The notes beneath the pieces are model-generated. The model searched no databases. It saw nothing but the letters and a program-made list of their open reading frames with translations, and was not told the origin of the DNA. A stretch of DNA of 22,073 nucleotides from a virus. Of this stretch, positions 16-20,799 are shown in pieces. The position numbers and the translations under genes are program-made. Position 1 is the first letter of the stretch. Each line of letters starts with the position of its first letter. The stretch is from the IMG/VR virus record IMGVR_UViG_3300030110_005288, positions 1 to 22,073 of that record; one strand, given 5' to 3'.

Positions 16-1626
16 TCATCTTCTAGACATTTGCATTAACCTTTGCCCGCCTTTTACTTGACCACGTGGTTCAGGAAGAGGCTCTCCTGTGTTAGGATTT
101 ATACCATAAGGAGCTTCGACTTCAGTTTCAGTTTCAGTATCTGAAATTTCTTCGGTACCTGCTGTAGGCGTACCTTGACCCATATCCATTAATCTAGGTT
201 GACTATCAGCATATTGTTGCATAGTAGCTTGCACTTCTGGGTTATTCATATCAGCAGTATCACTATAATCCATTCCTGCACCTGCTGTACCTAGTGGTGC
301 TGCAGGAGTTTCAACTGCAGTATCTACTGCTTCTTCGCCCCCACTACCAAACATTGCTTCTGCACCCGTACCTAGTGCTGCACCTTGTAAGGCATGTTTA
401 CCTACCGGTGCTTGAAAAAATGATTTAGCTTTTTGTCCTTTGGGTGCTTCTAAACCAGTTTTAGCGGCCCCACCTAAAGCTTTTCCTAAAGCAGCTCCAC
501 CTATTGTCCCAGCTGGGCCTAAAAGACTACCTGCTGCGCCTCCTAATGCTGCTCCAGCCAATGGTAAAGCTCCCTTTGCTAACCTTGATAATACACCTGG
601 TTTTTTGGGTGGTACCGGAGCAGACGCACTAACGGTTTCAGTATCTTTTACCTCTTCTACATCTTTTACCGGGCCTCTTGCAGCTGCTGACATTCTATCA
701 GCTAAACCTTGATCTGTTGCTGCTGCTTGAGCTTGAGCTTGAGCACCTTGTTTTTGTTGGTTAGCCATTTGCTGCATCAACTGAGAAAACATTTGCATTT
801 GTTGTCGCATTTGTTCCTGTTGTGCATCTGACTGAGCTTTTTGTTGTGCAGACATTGCAGCTTCTTTAGCTTCCATGTCTTGAATAGTTTTTGCAAGCTG
901 ATCATTTTTATCTTGCATATCACGCATTTGCTGCTGTTGTTTAATCTGAGCAGCAGTTGGTTGGCCCTGCTGCGCTTGGAGCTTTTTTATTTGAGCTTCC
1001 TGATCTCTTAACTGTTGTTGTTGTTTAATTTGAGCTGCGTTTGGTTGTGCAACATTGCGTGATGCTGGAATCGCTACTTCTGTATCTGTAGTAATTGTTT
1101 CTGTTGCTCCGCCTCCTTTTATATTTGCGTTATTAGCAGCAAAAATCTCACCGGTATCAAGCTTAACTTGTGTTGTACCCGGAGCAGATGCTTTACCTGT
1201 TAAAGTAGCATTTCTTGGACCTCTTTTAGTATTAACAATTACCGTTTCGGTTTGCTCTAATAATATATCGCTTTCGTATAATAAAATATCGGCACATATA
1301 CTTTCAAAAATAGTTTTTACGCTTTCATAAGCATCTCTATCTGAAACACTTTTAGTAGATTCTTGTAATATATCAAAAGCTTGTTTATTAGATAATTGTG
1401 TATTCTCGTTAACTAATCCAGGAGAACCTATATCATACATTTCTCTTAGTTTAGTTTTATAGAGTTCAAAAATATATTTTATTTTAATATTTTTTAGAGG
1501 TGCGAGATGATCGTTATTTTCAATAACATATTCAAAAAATTCTTTATCTCTTTTAAAGGATTCACCGGGTGTTACATCCCATGAACCTTGATAACTTTCA
1601 AAAATAGTGCGGATATCTTTATCCAT
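16..1626 (-). CDS. Gln-rich coiled-coil protein with glycine zipper, likely internal virion protein
   Basis: I do not recognise a family for this 536-residue protein. Residues 1-125 are helical and begin with a leader ending in IFE at 8-10; the same TIFES string recurs at 105-109. Residues 133-170 look like a small KOW/SH3-type beta module. Residues 195-300 are Gln/Ala/Met-rich coiled coil with an internal duplication (AAQIKQQQQ at about 197 and 225). Residues 345-391 form a glycine zipper of GxxxG and AxxxG spacing, a type often seen in membrane-inserting segments. The tail is acidic, Pro-rich and probably disordered. It has its own late promoter motif 5 nt upstream of the ATG and no Shine-Dalgarno. 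The coiled coil plus zipper suggests a virion protein that is ejected or touches membrane, but this is inference; a tail or baseplate component is an alternative. Confidence 0.75.
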   Translation of the reverse strand: MDKDIRTIFESYQGSWDVTPGESFKRDKEFFEYVIENNDHLAPLKNIKIKYIFELYKTKLREMYDIGSPGLVNENTQLSNKQAFDILQESTKSVSDRDAYESVKTIFESICADILLYESDILLEQTETVIVNTKRGPRNATLTGKASAPGTTQVKLDTGEIFAANNANIKGGGATETITTDTEVAIPASRNVAQPNAAQIKQQQQLRDQEAQIKKLQAQQGQPTAAQIKQQQQMRDMQDKNDQLAKTIQDMEAKEAAMSAQQKAQSDAQQEQMRQQMQMFSQLMQQMANQQKQGAQAQAQAAATDQGLADRMSAAARGPVKDVEEVKDTETVSASAPVPPKKPGVLSRLAKGALPLAGAALGGAAGSLLGPAGTIGGAALGKALGGAAKTGLEAPKGQKAKSFFQAPVGKHALQGAALGTGAEAMFGSGGEEAVDTAVETPAAPLGTAGAGMDYSDTADMNNPEVQATMQQYADSQPRLMDMGQGTPTAGTEEISDTETETEVEAPYGINPNTGEPLPEPRGQVKGGQRLMQMSRR

Positions 1627-1638: not shown

Positions 1639-2274
1639 TCAATCTGTAGTGAATAAACTATTACAAAAATCCCAATTGACTACTTTAAAATAACGGTCCA
1701 TAAACTCTTTGTTAAAAGGCCCGTCATCTAAGTAATAAGCATGTTCCCACATATCATTACCAAAAACAGGTTGACCTTGACCGTTCATAATTGGGTTATC
1801 TTGATTAGGAGTAGTGATCACTTCAAGTTTGTCTTTATTTTTGACTAACCATACCCAACCACTTCCGTATATGGAAGTACCTTTATCAACAAATTCCTTT
1901 CTGAAATTACTAAAAGAACCAAAAGTAGATTTTATTGCTTTTCCTAATTCCATTTTAGTTGTTAAAGTTGAACCACCGGGGGTCATAAACTTCCAATATA
2001 ATGAATGATTATAATACCCTCCTGCATTATGATTCACTTTTGCATCATACTTCTTAATATTTTTTAAAAGTTCGTGAATAGGTGGTTTAGGTCTGTTACC
2101 AAGTGCTTCATTCAAATTTTTAGTAAAATTACGATAGTGAACATCGTAATGAAATTTCATTGTCTGTTTACTAATATGGGGTTCCAAATCTTTAAATGCA
2201 TACCCAAGTTTGTCCATATAATATTTGGACGTATTTGCTTCTAAAATTAAATCTGCGTATTTTTCAAAACTCAT
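1639..2274 (-). CDS. sodA: Mn-type superoxide dismutase with an N-terminal leader
   Basis: Fe/Mn superoxide dismutase, converting superoxide to oxygen and hydrogen peroxide. Both halves of the fold are present. Metal ligands can be placed as His42 (FHYDVH), His90 (NHSLYW), Asp174 and His178 (DMWEHAYY). Position 86 is Gly where iron enzymes have the active-site Gln, and a Gln appears in the later NQDNP segment (Gln158), as in manganese enzymes, so manganese or cambialistic use is predicted. The enzyme core starts near residue 18; the first 17 residues, containing DLILE, are an extension absent from usual bacterial enzymes and resemble a T4 capsid-targeting leader. The ATG overlaps the upstream gene's stop (ATGA), with AAAGGTGG nine bases upstream as ribosome binding site. 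The family is certain; packaging is inference. Confidence 0.95.
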   Translation of the reverse strand: MSFEKYADLILEANTSKYYMDKLGYAFKDLEPHISKQTMKFHYDVHYRNFTKNLNEALGNRPKPPIHELLKNIKKYDAKVNHNAGGYYNHSLYWKFMTPGGSTLTTKMELGKAIKSTFGSFSNFRKEFVDKGTSIYGSGWVWLVKNKDKLEVITTPNQDNPIMNGQGQPVFGNDMWEHAYYLDDGPFNKEFMDRYFKVVNWDFCNSLFTTD

Positions 2275-2720
2275 TTCTTTTTACCACCTTTCATGTTAGC
2301 ACACCAATGATACATTTTACCCTTTTCTCCACCTGCTTTTTTAGCTTTAGCTCTTAATGATGTAACCGAACCTTTACAACTAGCCCCTGATCTTTTTACT
2401 CTACCAGGTCTACTTTTACCTTTCTTCTTACCATCAGCATAATTTTCATTCAATTTTTTTAACTGAATTTCTGTTTTATCTAAAATATCACCTTTTTTAT
2501 ATGTAGGTCCATTATTTAAAACCTTATATCTTATATATTTACCTACAGTATTGTCTTTATCAGGTTGTTCGATATCAAATACTTTTAAAATCTTGCCTTT
2601 ACTTTTATAGTGAGTGCATTCAGGATTTATATTCAGACAAACATCCCCTTCTTTTAGTTCATTAGCATCTAAATTAGTTTTCTCAAGTAATTCTTTACAT
2701 CTTTTAGAGAATCTGGTCAT
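2271..2720 (-). CDS. Basic Cys-containing phage module protein
   Basis: This 149-residue hypothetical protein starts with a leader ending in LLE at 11-13. A middle part of about 25-92 has a beta-rich look with KGDILDKTEI. A strongly basic C-terminal module from about 94 contains GRVKRSGASC, SLRAKAKK and MYHWCANMKGG. From memory, this module recurs at the ends of proteins in marine T4-like phages; I know no function. Two conserved Cys and many Lys/Arg suggest nucleic-acid or metal binding, or a structural role. It is first in a two-gene unit with superoxide dismutase, with an exact TATAAATA late promoter six bases before the ATG. Leader plus basic tail suits an internal, DNA-associated virion protein, which is inference. 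Confidence 0.8.
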   Translation of the reverse strand: MTRFSKRCKELLEKTNLDANELKEGDVCLNINPECTHYKSKGKILKVFDIEQPDKDNTVGKYIRYKVLNNGPTYKKGDILDKTEIQLKKLNENYADGKKKGKSRPGRVKRSGASCKGSVTSLRAKAKKAGGEKGKMYHWCANMKGGKKK

Positions 2721-2745: not shown

Positions 2746-3741
2746 TTATTCCCAGGCATCGTCCCAGTACCATCCCCAGGAGTCATACATTTTAGGTTGC
2801 CCGAAAGGGTCTCCCATATCTCTTAGATTCCATTCGCGAACATATCGACCTATACCACCACCCATCCAACCTTTCCATGGGTGGGTATTAGGATCAGGAT
2901 AAACGGCTCTATCTTGTAACCATTTAATATCTCTATTGTTTGGACTTAATACTGTATCCAAACTTGTATTAGGGTTCTTAACGTGTTCTGGTATATTTTT
3001 AGTGATCTCTTCTAACCATCTTCTAAACTCGACATGACCATCAGTAAAAGATACAACTGATCCATTTACATGATATATACCTGGCCAGTCCATAGAAAAA
3101 ATAGACTCTTTACCTTTTAATGTTGGTACAATTCTAAAGTTACCTGCATTTATTGATTCAGCTGGCATCTCAATAAAAGTAAACATCTTACTTGGATCAT
3201 TTACATCTGCATATTTATGATGTACTTTGTATTGATTATCATGCATAAAAGGCCATCCTGACCAACCACCCATAAAGATATTCATACTATAAGATCGAGC
3301 ACGCGATACTGTTGTAGTATTATTAGTATCACCAGGATACGGAGGAACCATTCCCCATCTCTCACCGTCCCAAGTTACTGTAGACTTATCTTGAGGACAT
3401 TTATATATACCTTTACCTGCATATTCAAATAAAGGAGACCATATTAAAGATCTTTCAGTTTGAGCCCATTTACTCCATCTACTATCACCTGACATACTAT
3501 CAGCTACCCATGCTCTTGGGGCAGTAGGTTCGTTGTGCCAAGCTGACGCATATGCTATTTTATCATCTGAATCTATTGCCAACTGACTCATAGCATAGTT
3601 TAACTGCTGTTGATTAGAAATACAAAGAGCTTTAGATGCAGACTGTTTTGACTTAGCTAAGGAAGGTAATAATAAGGCGGCTAGAATTGCTATAATAGCA
3701 ATAACTACTAGTAATTCAATTAGACTAAATGCCTTTTCCAT
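2746..3741 (-). CDS. Pseudopilin-like protein with prepilin leader and H-X9-DG motif
   Basis: A 331-residue protein with a type III prepilin leader: MEKA, predicted cleavage before Phe5, Glu at +5, then one hydrophobic helix (residues 5-27) that would anchor it in the inner membrane before assembly. The rest matches the large PulG-like proteins abundant in Verrucomicrobiota, Lentisphaerota and Planctomycetota: YKCPQD at 113-118, RSYSMN at 149-154, and His224 followed nine residues later by Asp-Gly (234-235), the H-X9-DG signature. In hosts such proteins are substrates of type II secretion or type IV pilus machinery. It stands alone between phage genes, with a late promoter motif six bases upstream of the ATG. 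It probably came from the host lineage; whether it enters host pseudopili or sits on the virion cannot be told. Confidence 0.9.
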   Translation of the reverse strand: MEKAFSLIELLVVIAIIAILAALLLPSLAKSKQSASKALCISNQQQLNYAMSQLAIDSDDKIAYASAWHNEPTAPRAWVADSMSGDSRWSKWAQTERSLIWSPLFEYAGKGIYKCPQDKSTVTWDGERWGMVPPYPGDTNNTTTVSRARSYSMNIFMGGWSGWPFMHDNQYKVHHKYADVNDPSKMFTFIEMPAESINAGNFRIVPTLKGKESIFSMDWPGIYHVNGSVVSFTDGHVEFRRWLEEITKNIPEHVKNPNTSLDTVLSPNNRDIKWLQDRAVYPDPNTHPWKGWMGGGIGRYVREWNLRDMGDPFGQPKMYDSWGWYWDDAWE

Positions 3742-5347: not shown

Positions 5348-6097
5348 CTATACTTTTAATGCCATATCCCATACTAATAAATGCAATCTAGGACTAAAGT
5401 TAAAATGGTGCTTTTTAGCTAACTCAGCAACCATTGGAGCAACTTCAATATGTTCTTTTCTACTACCCGCACAAGGCATTAGCCAAACTCTACCTGTTGG
5501 TATATCAAACGGGTCAATATACTTTTCAAATATTTCATCTAAGTCAGATTCTTTACTAACCACAAACTTAAATCCTGAGTTTTGCATTGCATGCCATTCT
5601 AACACTGCAGGTTTATATCTTCTATCTTCTGGGTCACCATTATTACTAAGCTTAGGCGATGTTGTAAATGTAGCATCAAGTCTAACCCATTCTTTATCTG
5701 GCATAATTGTTGCGTTCGTTTCAAAATCAATACGTGGAACCCAACCCCATTCAATATCCATATGTTCTATAAATCTTAGTAATGCTGGTTGTTGCACTAA
5801 CGGCTCCCCACCTGTAATTTTTAATATTGCACCATTCTTAAGATGATCAGTATGACCTTGTTCATCTAACATGCTAAGAATTTCATTATTTGTCATTTTA
5901 TTCTTAACACTCCATGAAATAAAACTATCACACCCATGAGGTGAATCTTCTGAAGCAAATCCTTGACAAGTAAGATTGCACATTGATAATCTCATAAAGA
6001 CTGAAGGATACCCAACATATTCACCTTCACCTTCAACGGTATAAAATACTTTATCATCACTAAGAAACATCTTTGAATCGCCTAAACTCATATACAT
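5348..6097 (-). CDS. queE: 7-carboxy-7-deazaguanine synthase QueE (radical SAM)
   Basis: QueE converts 6-carboxy-tetrahydropterin to 7-carboxy-7-deazaguanine with S-adenosylmethionine and a 4Fe-4S cluster. Visible are VFYTVEGEGEYVGYPSVF (17-34), the usual QueE N-terminus; cluster cysteines Cys40 and Cys44 in CNLTC; and KITGGEPLVQQP, the SAM-binding GGEP motif. The third cysteine appears to be Cys56 (CDSF), giving Cx3Cx11C rather than the classical Cx3Cx2C; QueE is known to tolerate inserts in this loop. The start could also be Met3 or Met10, since homology begins near residue 16. It is divergent from phoH across a 44-base spacer and leads a unit with the DUF1796 and glycosyltransferase genes. 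With queD and folE2 it supplies phage 7-deazaguanine or host queuosine synthesis. Confidence 0.92.
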   Translation of the reverse strand: MYMSLGDSKMFLSDDKVFYTVEGEGEYVGYPSVFMRLSMCNLTCQGFASEDSPHGCDSFISWSVKNKMTNNEILSMLDEQGHTDHLKNGAILKITGGEPLVQQPALLRFIEHMDIEWGWVPRIDFETNATIMPDKEWVRLDATFTTSPKLSNNGDPEDRRYKPAVLEWHAMQNSGFKFVVSKESDLDEIFEKYIDPFDIPTGRVWLMPCAGSRKEHIEVAPMVAELAKKHHFNFSPRLHLLVWDMALKV

Positions 6098-6879: not shown

Positions 6880-7049
6880 TTATCTTTTTCTAATTCTAAT
6901 AACTCCTTCATTGCAGCTTCCGGGCCTACAACATTAAGACCCGGAAGCTCTTTTTCTTTATCCTCAAAAGGCTTACCTATTTCAGCCATTTTTGAAAAAA
7001 CATCCCCTGCTAATTTTTCAATTTTAGGGTCTTTTTCTTTTTTTATCAT
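6858..7049 (-). CDS. Small hypothetical protein, coupled to queD
   Basis: 63 residues, charged, helical, no recognised family. The ATG shares its first base with the last base of the queD stop (TAATG), and AAGAGG just upstream can act as ribosome binding site, so it is probably translated by coupling. The 3' end overlaps the convergent phoH gene by 22 bases, and codons around residues 35-45 also encode the stem of the phoH terminator, which constrains both. The context is the best argument that it is real. Confidence 0.6.
   Translation of the reverse strand: MIKKEKDPKIEKLAGDVFSKMAEIGKPFEDKEKELPGLNVVGPEAAMKELLELEKDNQISDNT
6915..6959 (+). terminator. Rho-independent terminator of phoH
   Basis: The 10-bp stem AGCTTCCGGG / CCCGGAAGCT (6915-6924 with 6940-6949) has a 15-base loop and is followed by a T-rich run (CTTTTTCTTT). 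It lies 35 bases after the phoH stop, inside the convergent 63-residue gene. Confidence 0.75.
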
Positions 7050-7870
7050 TAGCCTCTTTTAGGTGCATATGGATCACCCTTAATATCAGCTCCCCAACTT
7101 GTTCCTGCAAATGGGTCTGCTGGGTTATTTGATTTAGGACCTGCACCTACACGAGCACCTATAGGTTTATTTTTATCTCTTGCAGCACCAGGTAAATTGC
7201 GTTGTTCTTCCTCATGATCTGCTTGAGTTTTAGGACCTTCAGCAGGGCCACTTTCTTTTACCACTTTAGGTTGATCAATAGGATCATTTGATTCACCTAA
7301 TTCATGTAAAGGTGTTGATTTTATAAAATCTTTAGGATCTTGTTGCGGTCCACATGCTTCTGCTTCTCTATATGCATCCCAATCAACCGCATCTAACGGT
7401 ACGTCGTCATTAGCAAAAATAGTTTTTTGTACTAATCGATTAGTATAAGTTGCACTATTCTTATCATGTTCCCAAACCTCAACCTTTTCTACCCAACATC
7501 TATCTTCTGTAGCAGCTTTAATAAATGAATCAGCAATATCAAATACATATTGAGCTGTTTTCTCAATACCCACACCGGACATTACTCTTAAATCAATAAC
7601 ACCAAGTGAATCGAGTTCTTTAAATTTTTCTAAATATGGGTCATCCTTATCAATACAAGTTGTATGATCAAATTGGTTTTCTAATTTTTCTTTTAAACCT
7701 TTGAGACTACCAAAATCTACCACCCAGTTATTCTCATCTAATTTATTTGCACCAAACCAAAGTTTTGATTGTAACCTATATCCATGAAGAAATCTGCAGT
7801 GTGACTTAGCTTTAGGTTGTCTGAAAGCACAACTACCTAACTCAATAATTTTTGTACTATTAAAGCTCAT
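7049..7870 (-). CDS. queD: QueD-like 6-carboxy-tetrahydropterin synthase with a long tail
   Basis: QueD/PTPS-fold enzyme that would convert dihydroneopterin triphosphate to 6-carboxy-tetrahydropterin, upstream of QueE. Recognisable are CAFRQPKAKSHCRFLHGY (14-31) with catalytic-type Cys25, VVDFGSLKG, FDHTT, a GIEKTAQYVF helix and VEKVEVWEH. The zinc site is unusual: the usual HGH is His29-Gly-Tyr31 and the usual first His (AAHRL) is absent, while His24 adjoins the Cys. From memory, this AFRQ...HGY version occurs in marine phages and relatives. The domain ends near residue 150; the remaining 120 or so residues are Pro/Gly/Asp-rich and probably disordered, which is unusual for QueD. It is third in a unit with two hypothetical genes and coupled to the 63-residue gene. 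Confidence 0.85.
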   Translation of the reverse strand: MSFNSTKIIELGSCAFRQPKAKSHCRFLHGYRLQSKLWFGANKLDENNWVVDFGSLKGLKEKLENQFDHTTCIDKDDPYLEKFKELDSLGVIDLRVMSGVGIEKTAQYVFDIADSFIKAATEDRCWVEKVEVWEHDKNSATYTNRLVQKTIFANDDVPLDAVDWDAYREAEACGPQQDPKDFIKSTPLHELGESNDPIDQPKVVKESGPAEGPKTQADHEEEQRNLPGAARDKNKPIGARVGAGPKSNNPADPFAGTSWGADIKGDPYAPKRG

Positions 7871-7907: not shown

Positions 7908-8396
7908 TTAAAGTGAAGTATTAATTTCTCTTTCCATAGGTGTATTGCCATACTCATCTTGATCACCTTTTAATTGTTGGAAACCACCTTTAGCTTCTTC
8001 GTTTTCGCTTTTTCTTTTTTTCTTTTTAAAAGGCCTTGGACAAGGTGTTCCTTTTACATGTACATGTCCACAACGACCACATAGAGTAGCTTTTTTAGCC
8101 TTTTCAATAACCATTTTACCTACATATTTTTTAGCAATTTCATCCATTTTAGATAAAGGAAGAGTAAGTTGGTCTTTATCATCCTTACTTTTTTTATCAA
8201 TAATTTGCTTTAAAAGTGATACCTCATCATTAGTTAACTCGTATGTTTTGTTGTTTATTTCAACCGTTACTGTTTCTTCATTCTCTGCAGTATTCAAAGC
8301 AATAGCAACTGCCTGCTTTTGAGGATAACCTTCTCCTTTTAGCATAGAAATATTTTTTCCTATTATTTCGTCTGTTTTTCCTTTTTTAAGCGGCAT
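7908..8396 (-). CDS. Hypothetical protein with phage MPLKKGK N-terminus and Cys/His knuckle
   Basis: 162 residues, no assigned function. Residues 1-36 ([16 protein letters not shown]...[11 protein letters not shown]) match a short motif that recurs at the start of many phage proteins. The middle is helical and charged. Cys106, Cys109, His111, His113 and Cys119 form a small CxxC-HxH-C cluster that could bind zinc, followed by a basic KKKKRK stretch and a polar tail. It overlaps the upstream gene by 11 bases and has no clear Shine-Dalgarno, so translational coupling is likely. The gap to queD is 37 bases. Confidence 0.7.
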
Positions 8397-8826
8397 TCTT
8401 TAAAAGTGTTTTATATATTTTAATTAAGTCTTTATCATCTACCCCACCGTGTTTAAGATATGACTCAATATCATCTATATCGTTGGTATTTTTTATTTGT
8501 TCAAATTCTTTACTGCTTATTTTGTCTTTAAGTTTTTTAGCAATATATTTTTTAAACATTCTTACAGAATTAGGTTTTGAAGGTGTGAGTACTGGTTTCT
8601 TTACATTAAAAATACCTGGTAATGGACCACCCGGCATTAAAACTTTTAGTAACGGGGGTAAAGCGGGTCCACAATTTTCTAAGCTCAGTTCTTGTAGTAC
8701 GAATCCTTCATAACTTTCGGATTCTTCAAATCCTTTATTTAAAGTAGGGTCTACTTTGAACCGTATATATTTTAAGCCTTTGGTTTTTAAACACTCGGCC
8801 AAAATGGTGTCAAAGTTTTTCATCAT
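8386..8826 (-). CDS. Hypothetical protein with capsid-targeting-like leader
   Basis: 146 residues, unrecognised. The N-terminus [12 protein letters not shown] ends a hydrophobic stretch in LAE at 9-11, very like the T4 internal protein leader. A central Pro/Gly-rich hydrophobic segment ([20 protein letters not shown], about 54-73) is followed by a helical, lysine-rich C-terminal half with possible helix-hairpin-helix spacing ([21 protein letters not shown]). It leads a four-gene unit with the 162-residue gene, queD and the 63-residue gene. It has a late promoter motif 5 nt before the first of two adjacent ATG codons; that spacing favours the first. Confidence 0.7.
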
Positions 8827-10538: not shown

Positions 10539-10577
10539 ATGGTTGATTCTAAAAGTAAAGATACTATCATTTAGTTG

Positions 10578-11621
10578 ATGTCCGATAAAAATAAAAGTTA
10601 CGAATGGTTAGGTGAGGATGATGAACTTACTGGAGAAAAAGACATTATTGCTCAAGAAATAATGGGCAATGAATTTAGTAAGAGTTATTATCCACCAATT
10701 CGAGTTTATGATAGAACGGTAAAAGCTGATAAAAAATATATTTCTTCTTTACCCGATCTTCAAAATGGACCTTCTAGTTTAATTCAAGGTGCAGCAGTAC
10801 CTATTCAACAAGTAGGTATTCATAATTTTAAATTACCTCTCAATTATAAAAAGAGAAACGGTAAAACTATAGAGCTAGAAACAAGCGTTACTGGTAGTGT
10901 TAGTTTAGAAGCACATAAGAAAGGTATTAACATGTCTCGTATTATGAGAAGTTTTTATGATCATAAGGACGAAGTATTCAGTATTAGTAAGATTAAAGAC
11001 GTGTTAGAAACATACAGAAAGAATTTAAAATGTTTTGACTCTCGTATAATGTTAAAGATATCCTACCCTATTAAGCAAAAAAGTTTGCGTAGTGGGTTGG
11101 AAGGTTATCAATATTATGATGTAGTTTTTGAAGGAGATCTAACTAAAGATGGTGAATTCAAAAAATATATTCATTTTGATTTTGTTTATTCATCTGCATG
11201 TCCATGTAGTTTTGAATTAAGCGAACATGCTGAAAAATATCGTAATAGAGCAACTGTTCCGCATAGTCAAAGAAGTGTAGCTCGTGTTAGTGTTAAGTTT
11301 GATGAAATGCTATGGATCGAAGATCTTCAAGAGTTATGCTTAGAAGCTCTTCAAACTGAAACGCAAGTTATGGTAAAGAGAGAAGATGAACAAGCATTTG
11401 CAGAAAAGAATGGATCTTATCTTAAGTTTGTAGAAGATGCAGTAAGGTTAATGTATGAAAAGCTTTCTAGTGAATCTCGTATTACAGACTTTAAGATTGT
11501 AGCTTCACATAATGAAAGTCTTCATAGTCATAATGCAGTATCGGTTATTGTAAAAGGTGTTGAAGGTGGCTTTACTGCAGGTGTACCTAGAGACGTATTT
11601 GAATCAACAGGTTTGAGATAA
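10578..11621 (+). CDS. folE2: GTP cyclohydrolase type IB (FolE2)
   Basis: FolE2 makes 7,8-dihydroneopterin triphosphate from GTP, the entry step for folate and 7-deazaguanine synthesis. Family blocks are clear: [29 protein letters not shown] with the catalytic Cys, [41 protein letters not shown] and [12 protein letters not shown]. Length (about 347 residues) is somewhat longer than typical bacterial FolE2, mainly at the N-terminus. The ATG at 10578 is preferred over the TTG at 10575. It is followed after 24 bases by an unknown gene with its own promoter motif. With queD and queE it gives three consecutive steps to 7-carboxy-7-deazaguanine; queC is not in this window. Confidence 0.93.
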
Positions 11622-13357: not shown

Positions 13358-13807
13358 TTAATCTTGCTCGTATTCTTTATCAACGTCAATTAGTTTATCA
13401 ATTTTAGATAAGAATAATTTACCTATTAAAACTGGGTATTCATTTTCGCTTCTATCAGCAATTGAAAATGGTACGTCTTTATATTCTTCATCACCAAGTT
13501 TAATGTCAAATAAAACTACCGGTCTATCTTCTTTAACCCCTGAACCGATATGGATGATAATTGTATCGACAACTTTTTTCTTTAGCTTTTTACCACCTAT
13601 CGTTTTTACAATAATATTATCGCCTCTTTTACTGACGACCTCACCGTTTATAACATTATATGCTCCATTACCGGAATCTATTTTAGCATCTACTTCACCT
13701 ATATCTTCTATATAAATTTTTTCTACTAAACCTACAATATCATCATCGTCAACGTTTATTTCTTGAACGATGTACCTACGATATATTTTTGAGAAATTGC
13801 TAATCAT
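13358..13807 (-). CDS. Retropepsin-fold protease of the RimK-associated (Zn_protease) family, with leader
   Basis: 149 residues matching the family annotated as ATP-dependent zinc protease, which has a retropepsin-like fold. VDAKIDSGNGAYNVI (39-53) holds the D-[ST]-G active-site motif at Asp44, and EDRPVVLFDIKLG...VPFSIADRS...YPVLIGKLFL (94-133) is the second family block. Homology begins near residue 24 (IVGLVEKIYI); the residues before it (MISNFSKIYRRYIVQE) form a leader with VQE at 14-16 like those on several other proteins here. The gene overlaps the Hc1-like gene by eight bases. A single DSG per chain implies a dimer, as in retroviral proteases. Its substrate is unknown. Confidence 0.82.
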   Translation of the reverse strand: MISNFSKIYRRYIVQEINVDDDDIVGLVEKIYIEDIGEVDAKIDSGNGAYNVINGEVVSKRGDNIIVKTIGGKKLKKKVVDTIIIHIGSGVKEDRPVVLFDIKLGDEEYKDVPFSIADRSENEYPVLIGKLFLSKIDKLIDVDKEYEQD

Positions 13808-15402: not shown

Positions 15403-15478
15403 AACAATGATCTGATTCTACTACTTCCCAATTAGCACACCCAGTAAAAAGCAAGACTATTGGGATTAGTATTCTCAT
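15188..15478 (-). CDS. His- and Pro-rich lipoprotein (possible outer-membrane spanin)
   Basis: 96 residues. The N-terminus MRILIPIVLLFTGC is a short lipoprotein signal with lipobox FTGC; Cys14 would be acylated. Residues 24-47 hold ten His plus two adjacent Cys (DHCCGGHIHHTSH...DHHHHRH), which could bind metal ions. Residues 48-57 are basic and 60-96 strongly Pro-rich. A small Pro-rich lipoprotein is typical of Rz1-type spanins, but the His cluster is not. The ATG overlaps the upstream stop by four bases (ATGA) with GGAA just before it. It is last in the unit of three Cys-module genes and ends at the T-run of the barrel gene's terminator. Confidence 0.7.
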   Translation of the reverse strand: MRILIPIVLLFTGCANWEVVESDHCCGGHIHHTSHTVYVVDHHHHRHDSRRKRDRSSEPYTPRVRPTPPSRPLPVPGRPPQNPPAETRRPGEKHDP

Positions 15479-15738
15479 TTTTTCCAGTTTACCCTCTTAG
15501 GTCCTTTTTTCTTATACATCTTTCCTTTTATACTCTTACAAGCTGATTTGGTAGGTCTACATGCTGGATAGCTGCCGCCCGACTTTTTAGATTTACGACC
15601 ACAAGGTCCCCCGGTTTTACAATTTACCCAACCGGAAAACTTTTTACCAGTTTTTGGGTCCTTTCCGCCTCTTTTAAACCATTGATGTAAATTATCTGAA
15701 GCTTCGTAAAACTGTTTAAATGTTATTTTTTCTTCCAT
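15475..15738 (-). CDS. Basic Cys-rich small phage protein (DUF5872-like)
   Basis: 87 residues. After the leader MEEKITFKQFYEAS (FYE at 10-12) comes a compact basic module: GGKDPKTGKKFSGWVNCKTGGPCGRK, then YPACRPTKSACKS and MYKKKGPKRVNWK. The PCGRK...YPACRPT pattern resembles DUF5872, known from phages and large DNA viruses without a function. Four Cys could bind zinc or form disulfides. AAAGGTGAT two bases before the ATG is a good Shine-Dalgarno. It overlaps the upstream gene by 16 bases and the lipoprotein gene by four. Confidence 0.78.
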   Translation of the reverse strand: MEEKITFKQFYEASDNLHQWFKRGGKDPKTGKKFSGWVNCKTGGPCGRKSKKSGGSYPACRPTKSACKSIKGKMYKKKGPKRVNWKK

Positions 15739-16172
15739 ATATCACCTTTACGACATCTAACTATCGCTCCAGACTTATATGCAGATGTTTTACCACCATA
15801 TACAGAATCAGCTTTACGTTTGCAGCGATCTTCTGCTTCTTCTTCATTATCTTCATCATGCTGAAGTTTATCTATTTTACGAGTCAGCATTCTTTTGTAT
15901 TTTTCAACTGAGCCGTAATTTTTTTCTGCATGTCTTTTATCAGGATTTGCTCTTAAAGCTTTTAAACTTTCTATGTCCTTTTGTCTATCTGTTTTTTGCT
16001 CTTCACCTTCTTCGCCAGGTATTGCTTCATCAGTGTCAGCAGTAGAGCCAGTGTAGGTATCATCTTCTGGGTCAAATGTATCGCCGTGTTGGTTTTGAGT
16101 TTGCATATTAAGAACACCACGGTTATATTCTTTTAACAAACTATCTATTTTACTATTAAATTTTATATTCAT
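15723..16172 (-). CDS. Acidic/basic hypothetical protein with SAYKSGAIVRCRKG module
   Basis: 149 residues. The leader MNIKFNSKIDSLLKEY has LKE at 13-15. Residues 25-60 are acidic and probably disordered, 60-110 are charged and helical, and the C-terminus (RCKRKADSVYGGKTSAYKSGAIVRCRKGDIWKKK) is a short two-Cys basic module that, from memory, recurs at the ends of marine phage proteins. Function is unknown. It starts one base after the preceding gene's stop, with TTGGTAAT before the ATG. An internal virion or DNA-binding role is inferred only from the leader and basic tail. Confidence 0.75.
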   Translation of the reverse strand: MNIKFNSKIDSLLKEYNRGVLNMQTQNQHGDTFDPEDDTYTGSTADTDEAIPGEEGEEQKTDRQKDIESLKALRANPDKRHAEKNYGSVEKYKRMLTRKIDKLQHDEDNEEEAEDRCKRKADSVYGGKTSAYKSGAIVRCRKGDIWKKK

Positions 16173-16173
16173 A

Positions 16174-16476
16174 TTACCAATTTTTACAACTTAAATATCG
16201 AGCTGTTCCTGGTTTAGCTGAAGAACATTTATGTCTTGCTCTAAAGCTTTTACGTCTTTTAGGGTTGCTCTTTTTAATTCGTCTCTTTGGGTCTCCGTAG
16301 TGTATCCGTTTGTATCCCTTACCGGAAGGATTCTTTACACACTTCATATACTTCTTACTATCCAAGTAAGAGCTAGCTTGTTTTGTTACCTTAGTGCATC
16401 GAGATCCTTTCTTTTCTAAAAGATCCATATAATCCCAATCGTCTTCACAAAGCATTAATATGTCATCAAAAGTCAC
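16174..16476 (-). CDS. Small basic protein with SFRARHKC...SCKNW module
   Basis: 100 residues from a GTG start. The leader MTFDDILMLCED has LCE at 9-11. The rest is very basic with Cys27, Cys46, Cys84 and Cys97; residues about 63-100 (GDPKRRIKKSNPKRRKSFRARHKC...ARYLSCKNW) form a module that I recall from C-termini of many marine phage proteins, function unknown. The GTG is supported by a late promoter motif five bases upstream. It is first in the unit of three Cys-module genes plus the lipoprotein, and divergent from the 130-residue gene. Confidence 0.75.
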   Translation of the reverse strand: MTFDDILMLCEDDWDYMDLLEKKGSRCTKVTKQASSYLDSKKYMKCVKNPSGKGYKRIHYGDPKRRIKKSNPKRRKSFRARHKCSSAKPGTARYLSCKNW

Positions 16477-16499: not shown

Positions 16500-16892
16500 A
16501 TGAATCGAGACGTTCGCAATCTACAAAAGTTAATGGAATCAGGAGGTCTTGCTTTTAATAGTGGCCCACATTGGGGAGACTTTGCAGATTACCCACAATC
16601 TAATGTTACTGTATTGAAACCAAGCGAAAAAGACGAAGAAGAAGATGACCCAAAATCTATTATATATAGTTTTATAGATAGTGAATTACAAAAAGCAAAA
16701 GGATATCTTACTACCGGTAAACACGGTGATATACCCGACTTTAAAGCTAACGTTATCGACAGTATTAACAGAGCATTAGCACCGTTTTCTGATATTATCA
16801 CTGATATGAATTTAGAAAGTGAAATATCTGATTATATAGAAAAATCTATTAATATGTTAACTGGAAGAAGAATACAAAACCCTATGAGGTAA
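16500..16892 (+). CDS. Hypothetical protein, acidic
   Basis: 130 residues, no family recognised. It begins MNRDVRNLQKLMESGG, with LME at 11-13 as in the leader pattern, then SGPHWGDFADYPQ, an acidic stretch (EKDEEEDD, about 43-50) and a helical C-terminal domain (60-122) ending in TGRRIQNPMR. The start is supported by the promoter spacing. It is the only plus-strand gene in this part and its end overlaps the convergent sulfotransferase gene by 11 bases. Confidence 0.7.
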   Translation: MNRDVRNLQKLMESGGLAFNSGPHWGDFADYPQSNVTVLKPSEKDEEEDDPKSIIYSFIDSELQKAKGYLTTGKHGDIPDFKANVIDSINRALAPFSDIITDMNLESEISDYIEKSINMLTGRRIQNPMR

Positions 16893-17532: not shown

Positions 17533-18162
17533 CTAATTTATCGTAGTGGGAAGGCTTGTCAATAATTGATATACTTCATCTACAACTGTTTTATTATCTC
17601 TCAACCTATCAGGTATATAAGGTAATAAATCTTCAATTTGCAAATTATCTAATTTATTTCTGATATCAGATGCACTTAATGGTTTGTCGCCTCCTACAGT
17701 TGAAAATACATCAATATCAAATTCTACACCCTCAGGGGCATATTTAGCGGCATTTTTATATCTTGCTGCATCTTCACCTTTACCACCCACACCTAATATA
17801 ACTTTGTCTCCAGGTTGGGTTCTTTCTGCAAAATAATCATAAACAAACTTTACTGGAGCAGGGTCGGTTAAAAATGTTATATTTCTTATATTTTCGTTTT
17901 CAGCGTATATTTCAAATATTTTCTTTGCTACATCAGCGGGTATATATTTTCCTGAATCTGTAGTTCTAATACTTTTTGGATTTTGTGGATCACTTATAAC
18001 AACTATTACCCTGTCTGCTTTATCAGCATAATTTTTAAACATTTCAAAATGCCCTTTATGTGGTGGTTTAAAACTACCTGGCACAAGAGCAACTGTTCTA
18101 AAGTTTACATCTTTATCAGGTATATCTTGTTCACCAAGAAAGAACTGTTTAAATGTTTTCAT
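17533..18162 (-). CDS. HxGH nucleotidyltransferase (cytidylyl/NMN adenylyltransferase-like) with leader
   Basis: 209 residues. VALVPGSFKPPHKGHFEMFKNY (24-45) is the first strand and HxGH motif (His35-Lys-Gly-His38) of the cytidylyltransferase superfamily; KPLSASDIRNKL (160-171) corresponds to the ISSTxxR nucleotide-binding motif. Such enzymes join a nucleotide to NMN, phosphopantetheine, glycerol phosphate or similar; the substrate here is uncertain. The conserved fold starts at residue 23, and the 22 residues before it (MKTFKQFFLGEQDI...) look strikingly like the T4 internal-protein leader MKTYQEFIAEA, with LGE at 9-11. It has a late promoter motif six bases upstream and leads a unit with sulfotransferase 2. 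Confidence 0.85.
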   Translation of the reverse strand: MKTFKQFFLGEQDIPDKDVNFRTVALVPGSFKPPHKGHFEMFKNYADKADRVIVVISDPQNPKSIRTTDSGKYIPADVAKKIFEIYAENENIRNITFLTDPAPVKFVYDYFAERTQPGDKVILGVGGKGEDAARYKNAAKYAPEGVEFDIDVFSTVGGDKPLSASDIRNKLDNLQIEDLLPYIPDRLRDNKTVVDEVYQLLTSLPTTIN

Positions 18163-19464: not shown

Positions 19465-20799
19465 CTATCTTTCTGCATTACCACCGGTTGCTCTACCCGG
19501 TCCGGGGTATTTGGAGTATGGAGTACCTCCTGGGTCTTTAGAACTTGCAGCATAATTTACTGCTTGAGCATTTGGGTATTCCATTCTACCACCACCGTAA
19601 TTTATACTAGGGGCAGATTGATCATCTTCATCAGTAGATCTAAATCTACTTGTCATCCCATCTAAAATAAACCTACCCGTTATTTTATAAGGTGGGTTAG
19701 TTGGTATAACAATTCCTTCATGACCACTTGCTTTTCCTAAAATAGATTCGTAATTTTCTAGAAGTTCTTCTCCAAGTCTAACAGTGGCATGATACATCAT
19801 AGCACCATTAACTGCTGTTTCAATATCTGATTCTTGATATATTTCATCTAAAGGTTGTTCACCCAGTACATTCATATAATTTTGTTTACTTACAGCACCA
19901 ATTCTTCTCCCTTCATTTGTAGTAATCATGGCCTCGCGAGGATTTTTTGCATTATCTAACCAAACGTTTAAAGGTTGTGTAACATCTTCTCCTAAAGAAA
20001 AGTTCACAGTAAAGGGTTCTGATAAAATTTTATTAAAATCAGGTCTACCTGTTGATTTTACAGGGGCACTAGTAATGACATCAAAATTATATTCTTTAGC
20101 AACAGGTTCTATTTTTTCTTTTAATTCTTCTAAAGCATCTTTGTTATAAGCAACTGGTTTAGAAGACCCCTTTTCAAGTTGTTCTTGACCTGTAATTTGA
20201 TTTTTAGTGGTTTGTCTTTCCATACCAGGTCTTACCAATTCACCTTGTCTGTTATATTTTTCTAAAAATTGATTTATACCATGTAAAGCTAAAAAGTCTT
20301 GATCACCATAATCTATAACATTAGTGTGGCCTTGAACAAATTCAGCATTTATAAATTTTGTTGGATCGTTATATAAACCCAATTTTTCTAACTCAGGTCT
20401 AATAGTAGGTAAGGCTTGATTAAAAATAGATAGAATTATTTTCCCGCTATTAACCATTCCATGAGGTGTACCATCTTTTGTTATAAATCTGTCTTCTAAT
20501 TTATCTACGGTAACACCGTTTACGTCTAATTCAGACATGGAACCTCTGTCTAAAGCAAATTGTTTATTTCCAAATTCATCTGTAATAACTTTTATACTAA
20601 CATTTGTTCCATCAATTTTTATAGACCCACCCTCATCGTCTAATATATCAACTGTTTCATCAAATTTACGTATTAAATCATTCCCTGATCTAACATCTGG
20701 TAAATCAAATGGGTGAGCCATATGACCTGCAGCACCCCCCTCGTTAACCAAAACTCCTTTAGTATAACTTTCAAATATTAATTCATGTTCAAATTTCAT
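19465..20799 (-). CDS. Nucleic-acid-ligase-fold (covalent nucleotidyltransferase) protein with leader
   Basis: 444 residues. Motif I of ATP-dependent DNA/RNA ligases and capping enzymes is GSIKIDGTNVSIK, with Lys61 as the adenylated residue; FALDRGS gives the conserved Arg85; FINAEFVQG is a motif III candidate (Glu153); HEGIVIP (360-366) is motif IV and PYKITGRF (370-377) motif V with Lys372. The nucleotidyltransferase domain carries a long insert between motifs III and IV and no recognised accessory domain; the last 60 residues are Gly/Pro-rich and disordered. The N-terminus MKFEHELIFESY has IFE at 8-10, followed by the phage segment GGAAGHMAHPFDLPD. The start overlaps the upstream stop (TAATG). 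It could be a DNA or RNA ligase. Confidence 0.75.
   Translation of the reverse strand: MKFEHELIFESYTKGVLVNEGGAAGHMAHPFDLPDVRSGNDLIRKFDETVDILDDEGGSIKIDGTNVSIKVITDEFGNKQFALDRGSMSELDVNGVTVDKLEDRFITKDGTPHGMVNSGKIILSIFNQALPTIRPELEKLGLYNDPTKFINAEFVQGHTNVIDYGDQDFLALHGINQFLEKYNRQGELVRPGMERQTTKNQITGQEQLEKGSSKPVAYNKDALEELKEKIEPVAKEYNFDVITSAPVKSTGRPDFNKILSEPFTVNFSLGEDVTQPLNVWLDNAKNPREAMITTNEGRRIGAVSKQNYMNVLGEQPLDEIYQESDIETAVNGAMMYHATVRLGEELLENYESILGKASGHEGIVIPTNPPYKITGRFILDGMTSRFRSTDEDDQSAPSINYGGGRMEYPNAQAVNYAASSKDPGGTPYSKYPGPGRATGGNAER

Follow-up and report, generated by a model that had tools for sequence, protein, structure and literature searches.

The gene at positions 1639-2274 of the 22-kb virus fragment analyzed here (the whole fragment is called the window below) raises the question of why a phage superoxide dismutase (SOD) should carry additional residues ahead of its fold. 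By sequence it encodes a complete Mn-type superoxide dismutase. The open reading frame is bounded exactly by these positions on the minus strand and begins with ATG, and its product matched Pfam Sod_Fe_N (1.2e-18, from residue 17) and Sod_Fe_C (1.1e-31). Alignment placed the metal ligands at H42, H90, D174 and H178 and set the Mn-type residues G86 and Q158 opposite G77 and Q146 of E. coli SodA, bearing out both the complete four-ligand enzyme and the Mn-type Gly and Gln read in an initial annotation of the locus; H30, W169, E170 and Y174 (SodA numbering) were also kept. The structure was predicted by AlphaFold with a nine-sequence alignment (mean pLDDT 87), and the closest solved structures were mostly MnSODs (TM approx. 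0.82-0.90). Residue 18 of the query aligned with chain residue 2 of E. coli MnSOD, an extension of approx. 16 residues for which the earlier count of about 17 was fair, and the DLILE reported within it was found at residues 8-12. The start codon shares an ATGA overlap with the stop of the upstream gene, and translation from residue 1 is therefore plausible; an internal start at Met20 was ruled out by this overlap and by the lack of a Met at that place in the diverged orthologue on contig G018.

The leader of the window SOD resembles a T4 capsid-targeting sequence in being short and amphipathic with L/I-X-E at its end, MSFEKYADLILE↓A (arrows mark cut sites, which for the phage SODs are predicted). 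The T4 prohead protease gp21 cleaves after L/I-X-E, and in the T4 internal protein IPIII the first ten residues are enough for packaging, residues 4 and 7 being important for targeting and residues 8 and 10 for processing (PMC9026906). IPII and IPIII both start MKTYQEFIAE↓A, and Y6, L9, I10 and E12 of the window leader are in register with the key positions of IPIII. Close orthologues carried MSFEKYADLILE↓A, MNFEKYADLIVE↓A, MNYEYKIQELLE↓A and MNYEYKIQRILE↓A and an orthologue of 42% identity carried MKYDQIADLILE↓K, while the leader of L002 fitted the T4 register more poorly and kept LLE. The predicted cut after E12 leaves ten residues ahead of the fold as compared with seven in ordinary bacterial SODs, and such a cut would give back an ordinary SOD N-terminus. 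In the AlphaFold model residues 1-15 were mostly helix at low confidence (pLDDT approx. 49) before a well-predicted fold (approx. 90), so that the leader, rather than lying within the fold, is predicted to be outside it and separable from the body.

N-termini were compared for 80 bacterial and 80 viral SOD loci, both being the best-scoring 80 of more matches, and only distinct leaders with a recognizable fold start were counted. L/I-X-E ended 7-11 residues ahead of the fold in 48 of the 50 viral leaders and in 0 of the 48 bacterial leaders, counts which are not independent events because the sequences share descent. When E was swapped for D, K or Q the viral counts were 0, 0 and 1. The motif is short and common, and looser regular-expression counts gave the same trend; as these were partly post hoc, the published motif and the other-residue controls were adopted. 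The phage-type extension, which in a close bacterial homologue would have counted against the reading of the initial annotation, was not found in any close homologue among the 80 bacterial loci. Most of these relatives begin approx. 7 residues before the fold or bear lipoprotein-like or Tat-like signals. Bacterial SodA-type MnSODs have the same fold, four ligands and Mn-type Gly and Gln as the window SOD, which differs from them in its sequence (37%-44% identical), its added leader, a Phe in place of Tyr34 and its place in a separate phage group of the tree. That tree, a quick build without bootstrap, grouped the phage SODs away from the bacterial ones (SH-aLRT 93), a single phage sequence, L262, falling at the border; it had been proposed as a way to the donor lineage and separated the phage group, but no particular donor was found. 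Several SOD matches in phage records look like host DNA and were left out; they sit in unannotated contigs or, for MW462191, next to ordinary bacterial genes.

Two classes of phage SOD were seen, one with short leaders and one of approx. 510 residues with additional C-terminal sequence (L004:9899-11443, L008:9539-11635 and most of L211-L285). The L008 protein also has an N-terminal metallopeptidase-like part. Sites of the L/I-X-E type lie between the parts of these longer proteins, which are possibly polyproteins cut by the prohead protease.

Comparison of orthologues suggested that leaders and bodies have separate histories. Between the window and L002 proteins residues 23-211 were 93% identical and residues 2-10 only 11%, with L/I-X-E kept (DNA identity 84% in the body, 41% in the leader), whereas the DNA of L003 gave the reversed pattern with the leader at 93% and the body at 80%. 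From these opposite identities, leaders have probably been exchanged between SOD bodies with the cleavage site retained. The window and G018 likewise have small basic proteins with common bodies and differing leaders, and relatives of the ligase-like protein in Table 1 have varied leaders with a hydrophobic-X-E site right before GGAAGHM, a point at which the L043 protein simply starts (M-GGAAGHM). As a separate observation, the basic Cys-containing domain (KGKSRPGRVKRSGASCKG...) of the protein at 2271-2720 was also found in L117:8739-8942, reused behind a different leader, and the upstream genes of G001 and G011, which are shorter, lack it.

By its relatives, which bear T4-type core genes, the window phage is an uncultured T4-like phage; annotated phage records held few or no near relatives of the window proteins. 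The gp20 portal was found on G011 (7.7e-105), and G018 and G031 had the portal, the S77 prohead protease and gp23. On G031 one strand carries portal, S77 protease, scaffold, gp23 and then SOD, which comes directly behind gp21-gp22-gp23 and starts approx. 80 bp beyond the gp23 stop. The protein in the scaffold position of G018 contained 27 hydrophobic-X-E sites where shuffled versions gave 11.7, an excess that would fit a protein cut many times. No head gene or protease was found within the 22-kb window fragment itself; S77 is present in its relatives G018 and G031, which have the same kind of SOD. Searches for S77 and gp23 gave no match in the first nine contigs, all of them fragments, and matches in longer relatives, and S77 was present in G018 and in 7 of 20 further SOD-bearing contigs, the other records of which may be incomplete.

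Several proteins of the window phage, the SOD among them, probably carry a label of this kind (Table 1). An L/I-X-E with its E at positions 8-16 was found in 12 of the 32 window proteins against 2.8 expected from internal stretches, and controls with D, Q, K, N or S at the same positions showed no excess. An excess of E was also seen in G002, G010, G011 (where D and S were somewhat high too) and G018, which are related to the window and so give only partly independent support. The basic C-terminal domain of the protein just upstream of SOD lies behind another leader in G018, and the G018 homologue of the protein at 15475..15738 shows INE↓ASD in the corresponding place after a different leader. 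The ligase-like protein was named by motif alone and had no Pfam match. One further protein (8386-8826) was considered as leader-bearing cargo and set aside as weak, the Glu being absent at that place in G002.

Table 1. Features of the window discussed in the text (↓, predicted cut; CTS, capsid targeting sequence)
Feature	Position	Strand	Basis or remark
SOD precursor gene, 211 aa	1639..2274	(-)	Pfam Sod_Fe_N and Sod_Fe_C, MnSOD fold match, ligands and second-sphere residues
Proposed capsid-targeting leader, residues 1-12, MSFEKYADLILE	2239..2274	(-)	Absent in bacterial SODs; predicted outside fold; probably exchanged between orthologues
Proposed prohead-protease site, I10-L11-E12↓A13	2236..2247	(-)	Fits published T4 gp21 motif L/I-X-E (PMC9026906); predicted cut
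F50 in place of usual gateway Tyr34	2125..2127	(-)	Alignment of viral and bacterial loci
Small basic protein, net charge +21, MTRFSKRCKELLE↓K, just upstream of SOD; candidate second CTS cargo	2271..2720	(-)	
536-aa protein downstream of SOD, MDKDIRTIFE↓S; candidate CTS cargo	16..1626	(-)	Site kept in G011 and in same-place G002 protein
Zn_protease-family protein (PF05618), MISNFSKIYRRYIVQE↓I; weak candidate	13358..13807	(-)	P3 = Val
Small basic Cys protein, net charge +20, MEEKITFKQFYE↓A; candidate CTS cargo	15475..15738	(-)	P3 = Phe
149-aa protein, MNIKFNSKIDSLLKE↓Y; candidate CTS cargo	15723..16172	(-)	
Small basic Cys protein, GTG start, MTFDDILMLCE↓D; candidate CTS cargo	16174..16476	(-)	Start uncertain
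130-aa protein, MNRDVRNLQKLME↓S; candidate CTS cargo	16500..16892	(+)	G010 homologue MNPDDFKMQKIFE↓S
Nucleotidyltransferase (CTP_transf_like), MKTFKQFFLGE↓Q; candidate CTS cargo	17533..18162	(-)	G002 homologue MITFKKFFLKE↓N
KxDG ligase-like protein, MKFEHELIFE↓S...VLVNE↓GGAAGHM; candidate CTS cargo	19465..20799	(-)	Varied leaders of relatives

Other genes of the window were noted in passing. QueE (5348-6097), QueD (7049-7870) and FolE2 (10575-11621) occur together, which suggests a 7-deazaguanine pathway, perhaps for DNA modification. FolE2 shared 95.7% identity with its homologue in G002 and 91% with the one in G018, where most neighboring proteins shared 40%-80%, and appears from these values to be unusually conserved or recently exchanged. 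At 2746-3741 there is a prepilin-like protein (N_methyl motif) with an H-X9-DG-like stretch; its place is taken by an epimerase-like gene in G002 and by nothing in G001 and G011. Prepilin-like proteins of the H-X9-DG type are often seen in Planctomycetes and Verrucomicrobia, and this one is a possible hint to the host.

Taken with the leader and its site, we consider it likely, and hold with good confidence, that the Mn-type SOD precursor is a T4-like internal head protein whose leader targets it to the prohead and is cut off after E12. By analogy with T4, residues 1-12 would form an amphipathic targeting helix which joins the scaffold core during prohead assembly. An S77 prohead protease of the gp21 type would then cleave at the site present after E12, leaving an SOD of normal length in the head, and DNA would be packaged around it afterwards. 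The enzyme might, more speculatively, remain as virion cargo or be ejected with the DNA and clear superoxide before phage genes are expressed. Carriage inside the particle is well supported by inference, and the packaged dismutase which the initial annotation had guessed at, giving no mechanism, gains support from the T4-type targeting and cleavage signature. Ejection into the host with the DNA we would put at about even chances. The T4 portal channel is approx. 30 Angstrom, and a folded SOD dimer therefore could not pass without unfolding. Protection of virion, DNA or cell against superoxide is a speculative role.

Other explanations of the leader have to be set against these data. The protein could be an ordinary auxiliary metabolic SOD used in the infected cell, its leader being neutral or stabilizing and its L/I-X-E arising by chance or for another role; the conserved enzyme core would indeed work in the cytoplasm, and Vibrio phage 2.275.O has an SOD-like protein without such a leader despite an S77 protease in its genome. 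We regard this as improbable given the fixed distance of the site from the fold in the phage leaders and not in the bacterial ones (best-scoring 80 loci each), the swapping of leader sequence with retention of the site, and the SOD gene inside the head block of G031. Still harder to credit, and in our view very improbable indeed, is a secretion or membrane signal directing the protein to the periplasm or surface. Lipoprotein-like or Tat-like signals do occur on some bacterial relatives, but the window leader has no hydrophobic core, lipobox or twin Arg, and its peak mean hydropathy (10-residue window) was 0.37 as compared with 2.7-3.8 in the signal-type N-termini compared, so the leader is too polar for such a signal and this reading was dropped.

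The SOD might instead be packaged and cut and then serve a structural or DNA-associated role rather than an enzymatic one. Its similarly led neighbors include small basic proteins, and the gateway Tyr34 has been lost in the window clade: Phe is confined to the SODs of the window, L002, L003, L113 and L206, with Tyr present in the remaining 79 viral loci and in every one of the 80 bacterial loci compared (the best-scoring of more). This Phe could reduce SOD activity. In human MnSOD Y34F nearly abolishes the fast pathway, while in the D. radiodurans enzyme the same change is mild, and Tyr34 is not needed for the fold nor for all activity (PMC9208312). A non-enzymatic role is also at odds with the net charge of the window SOD, only +3, and with the sequences: all 80 viral loci (the best-scoring 80 of more) retain the metal ligands and, apart from the gateway Tyr34, the other second-sphere residues. 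We think such a role unlikely.

The internal-head-protein reading has its closest parallel in T4 IPI, IPII, IPIII and Alt, which like the window SOD have a short N-terminal propeptide ending in L/I-X-E, cut in T4 by gp21. Further likenesses are the T4-type core genes, including the S77 protease in relatives of the window, and the occurrence of several cargo bodies behind similar leaders. The window system differs in that its cargo is an SOD, the phage SOD leaders are more varied, and packaging and cutting are here predicted; IPI-IPIII are anti-restriction proteins and Alt is an ADP-ribosyltransferase (PMC12373910, PMC9026906). In phiKZ and SPN3US, N-terminal propeptides of ejected or inner-head proteins are cleaved after Glu by S80-type proteases (PMC5694885), but these propeptides have another motif (S/A-X-E in phiKZ) and are often much longer than the window leader.

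A possible precedent for a packaged phage SOD is gp223 of the cultured Pseudomonas jumbo phage PA5oct (L299:1492-2040; NC_071039.1 172979-173527), annotated as hypothetical. Like the window SOD it has SOD domains and a leader, MNDSIKKYISIAE↓A (ISIAE↓A), with an S77 protease in the genome (84157-84588 of the record), but it is diverged (24% identical) and the Gln of its Mn-type motif is seemingly replaced by His. The record of gp223 carries an ESI-MS/MS note, but ribonucleotide reductase and other ordinary enzymes bear it too, which leaves room for contamination and makes a virion location unsure. The PA5oct protein named 'head maturation protease' (L301:30350-31021) was rejected as the prohead protease, being ClpP-like (CLP_protease, 8e-60). 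A virus-encoded Cu-Zn SOD has been reported in virions of Chlorovirus PBCV-1; it belongs to an unrelated enzyme family in a eukaryotic virus and is without the T4-type leader. In a search of the open literature, which left subscription journals outside its scope, no paper was found with both 'capsid targeting sequence' and 'superoxide dismutase'.

It is common to assume that phage metabolic genes act solely after expression in the infected cell. If the proposed reading is true, the particle itself would carry a metabolic enzyme, namely an SOD whose capsid label can be removed. Our broader suggestion is more tentative and falls short of an expectation: T4-like phages may widely carry capsid-addressed SODs, nucleotidyltransferases and small basic proteins and inject them with the DNA, shifting the redox and nucleotide state of the host before the first transcription. 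Since the label is recognizable in sequence, lists of candidate proteins for packaging, and possibly for injection, can be drawn up for uncultured T4-like phages. Most genes of these phages lack a known function, and the L/I-X-E label, if the reading is true, would reveal much of their packaged proteome from sequence alone.
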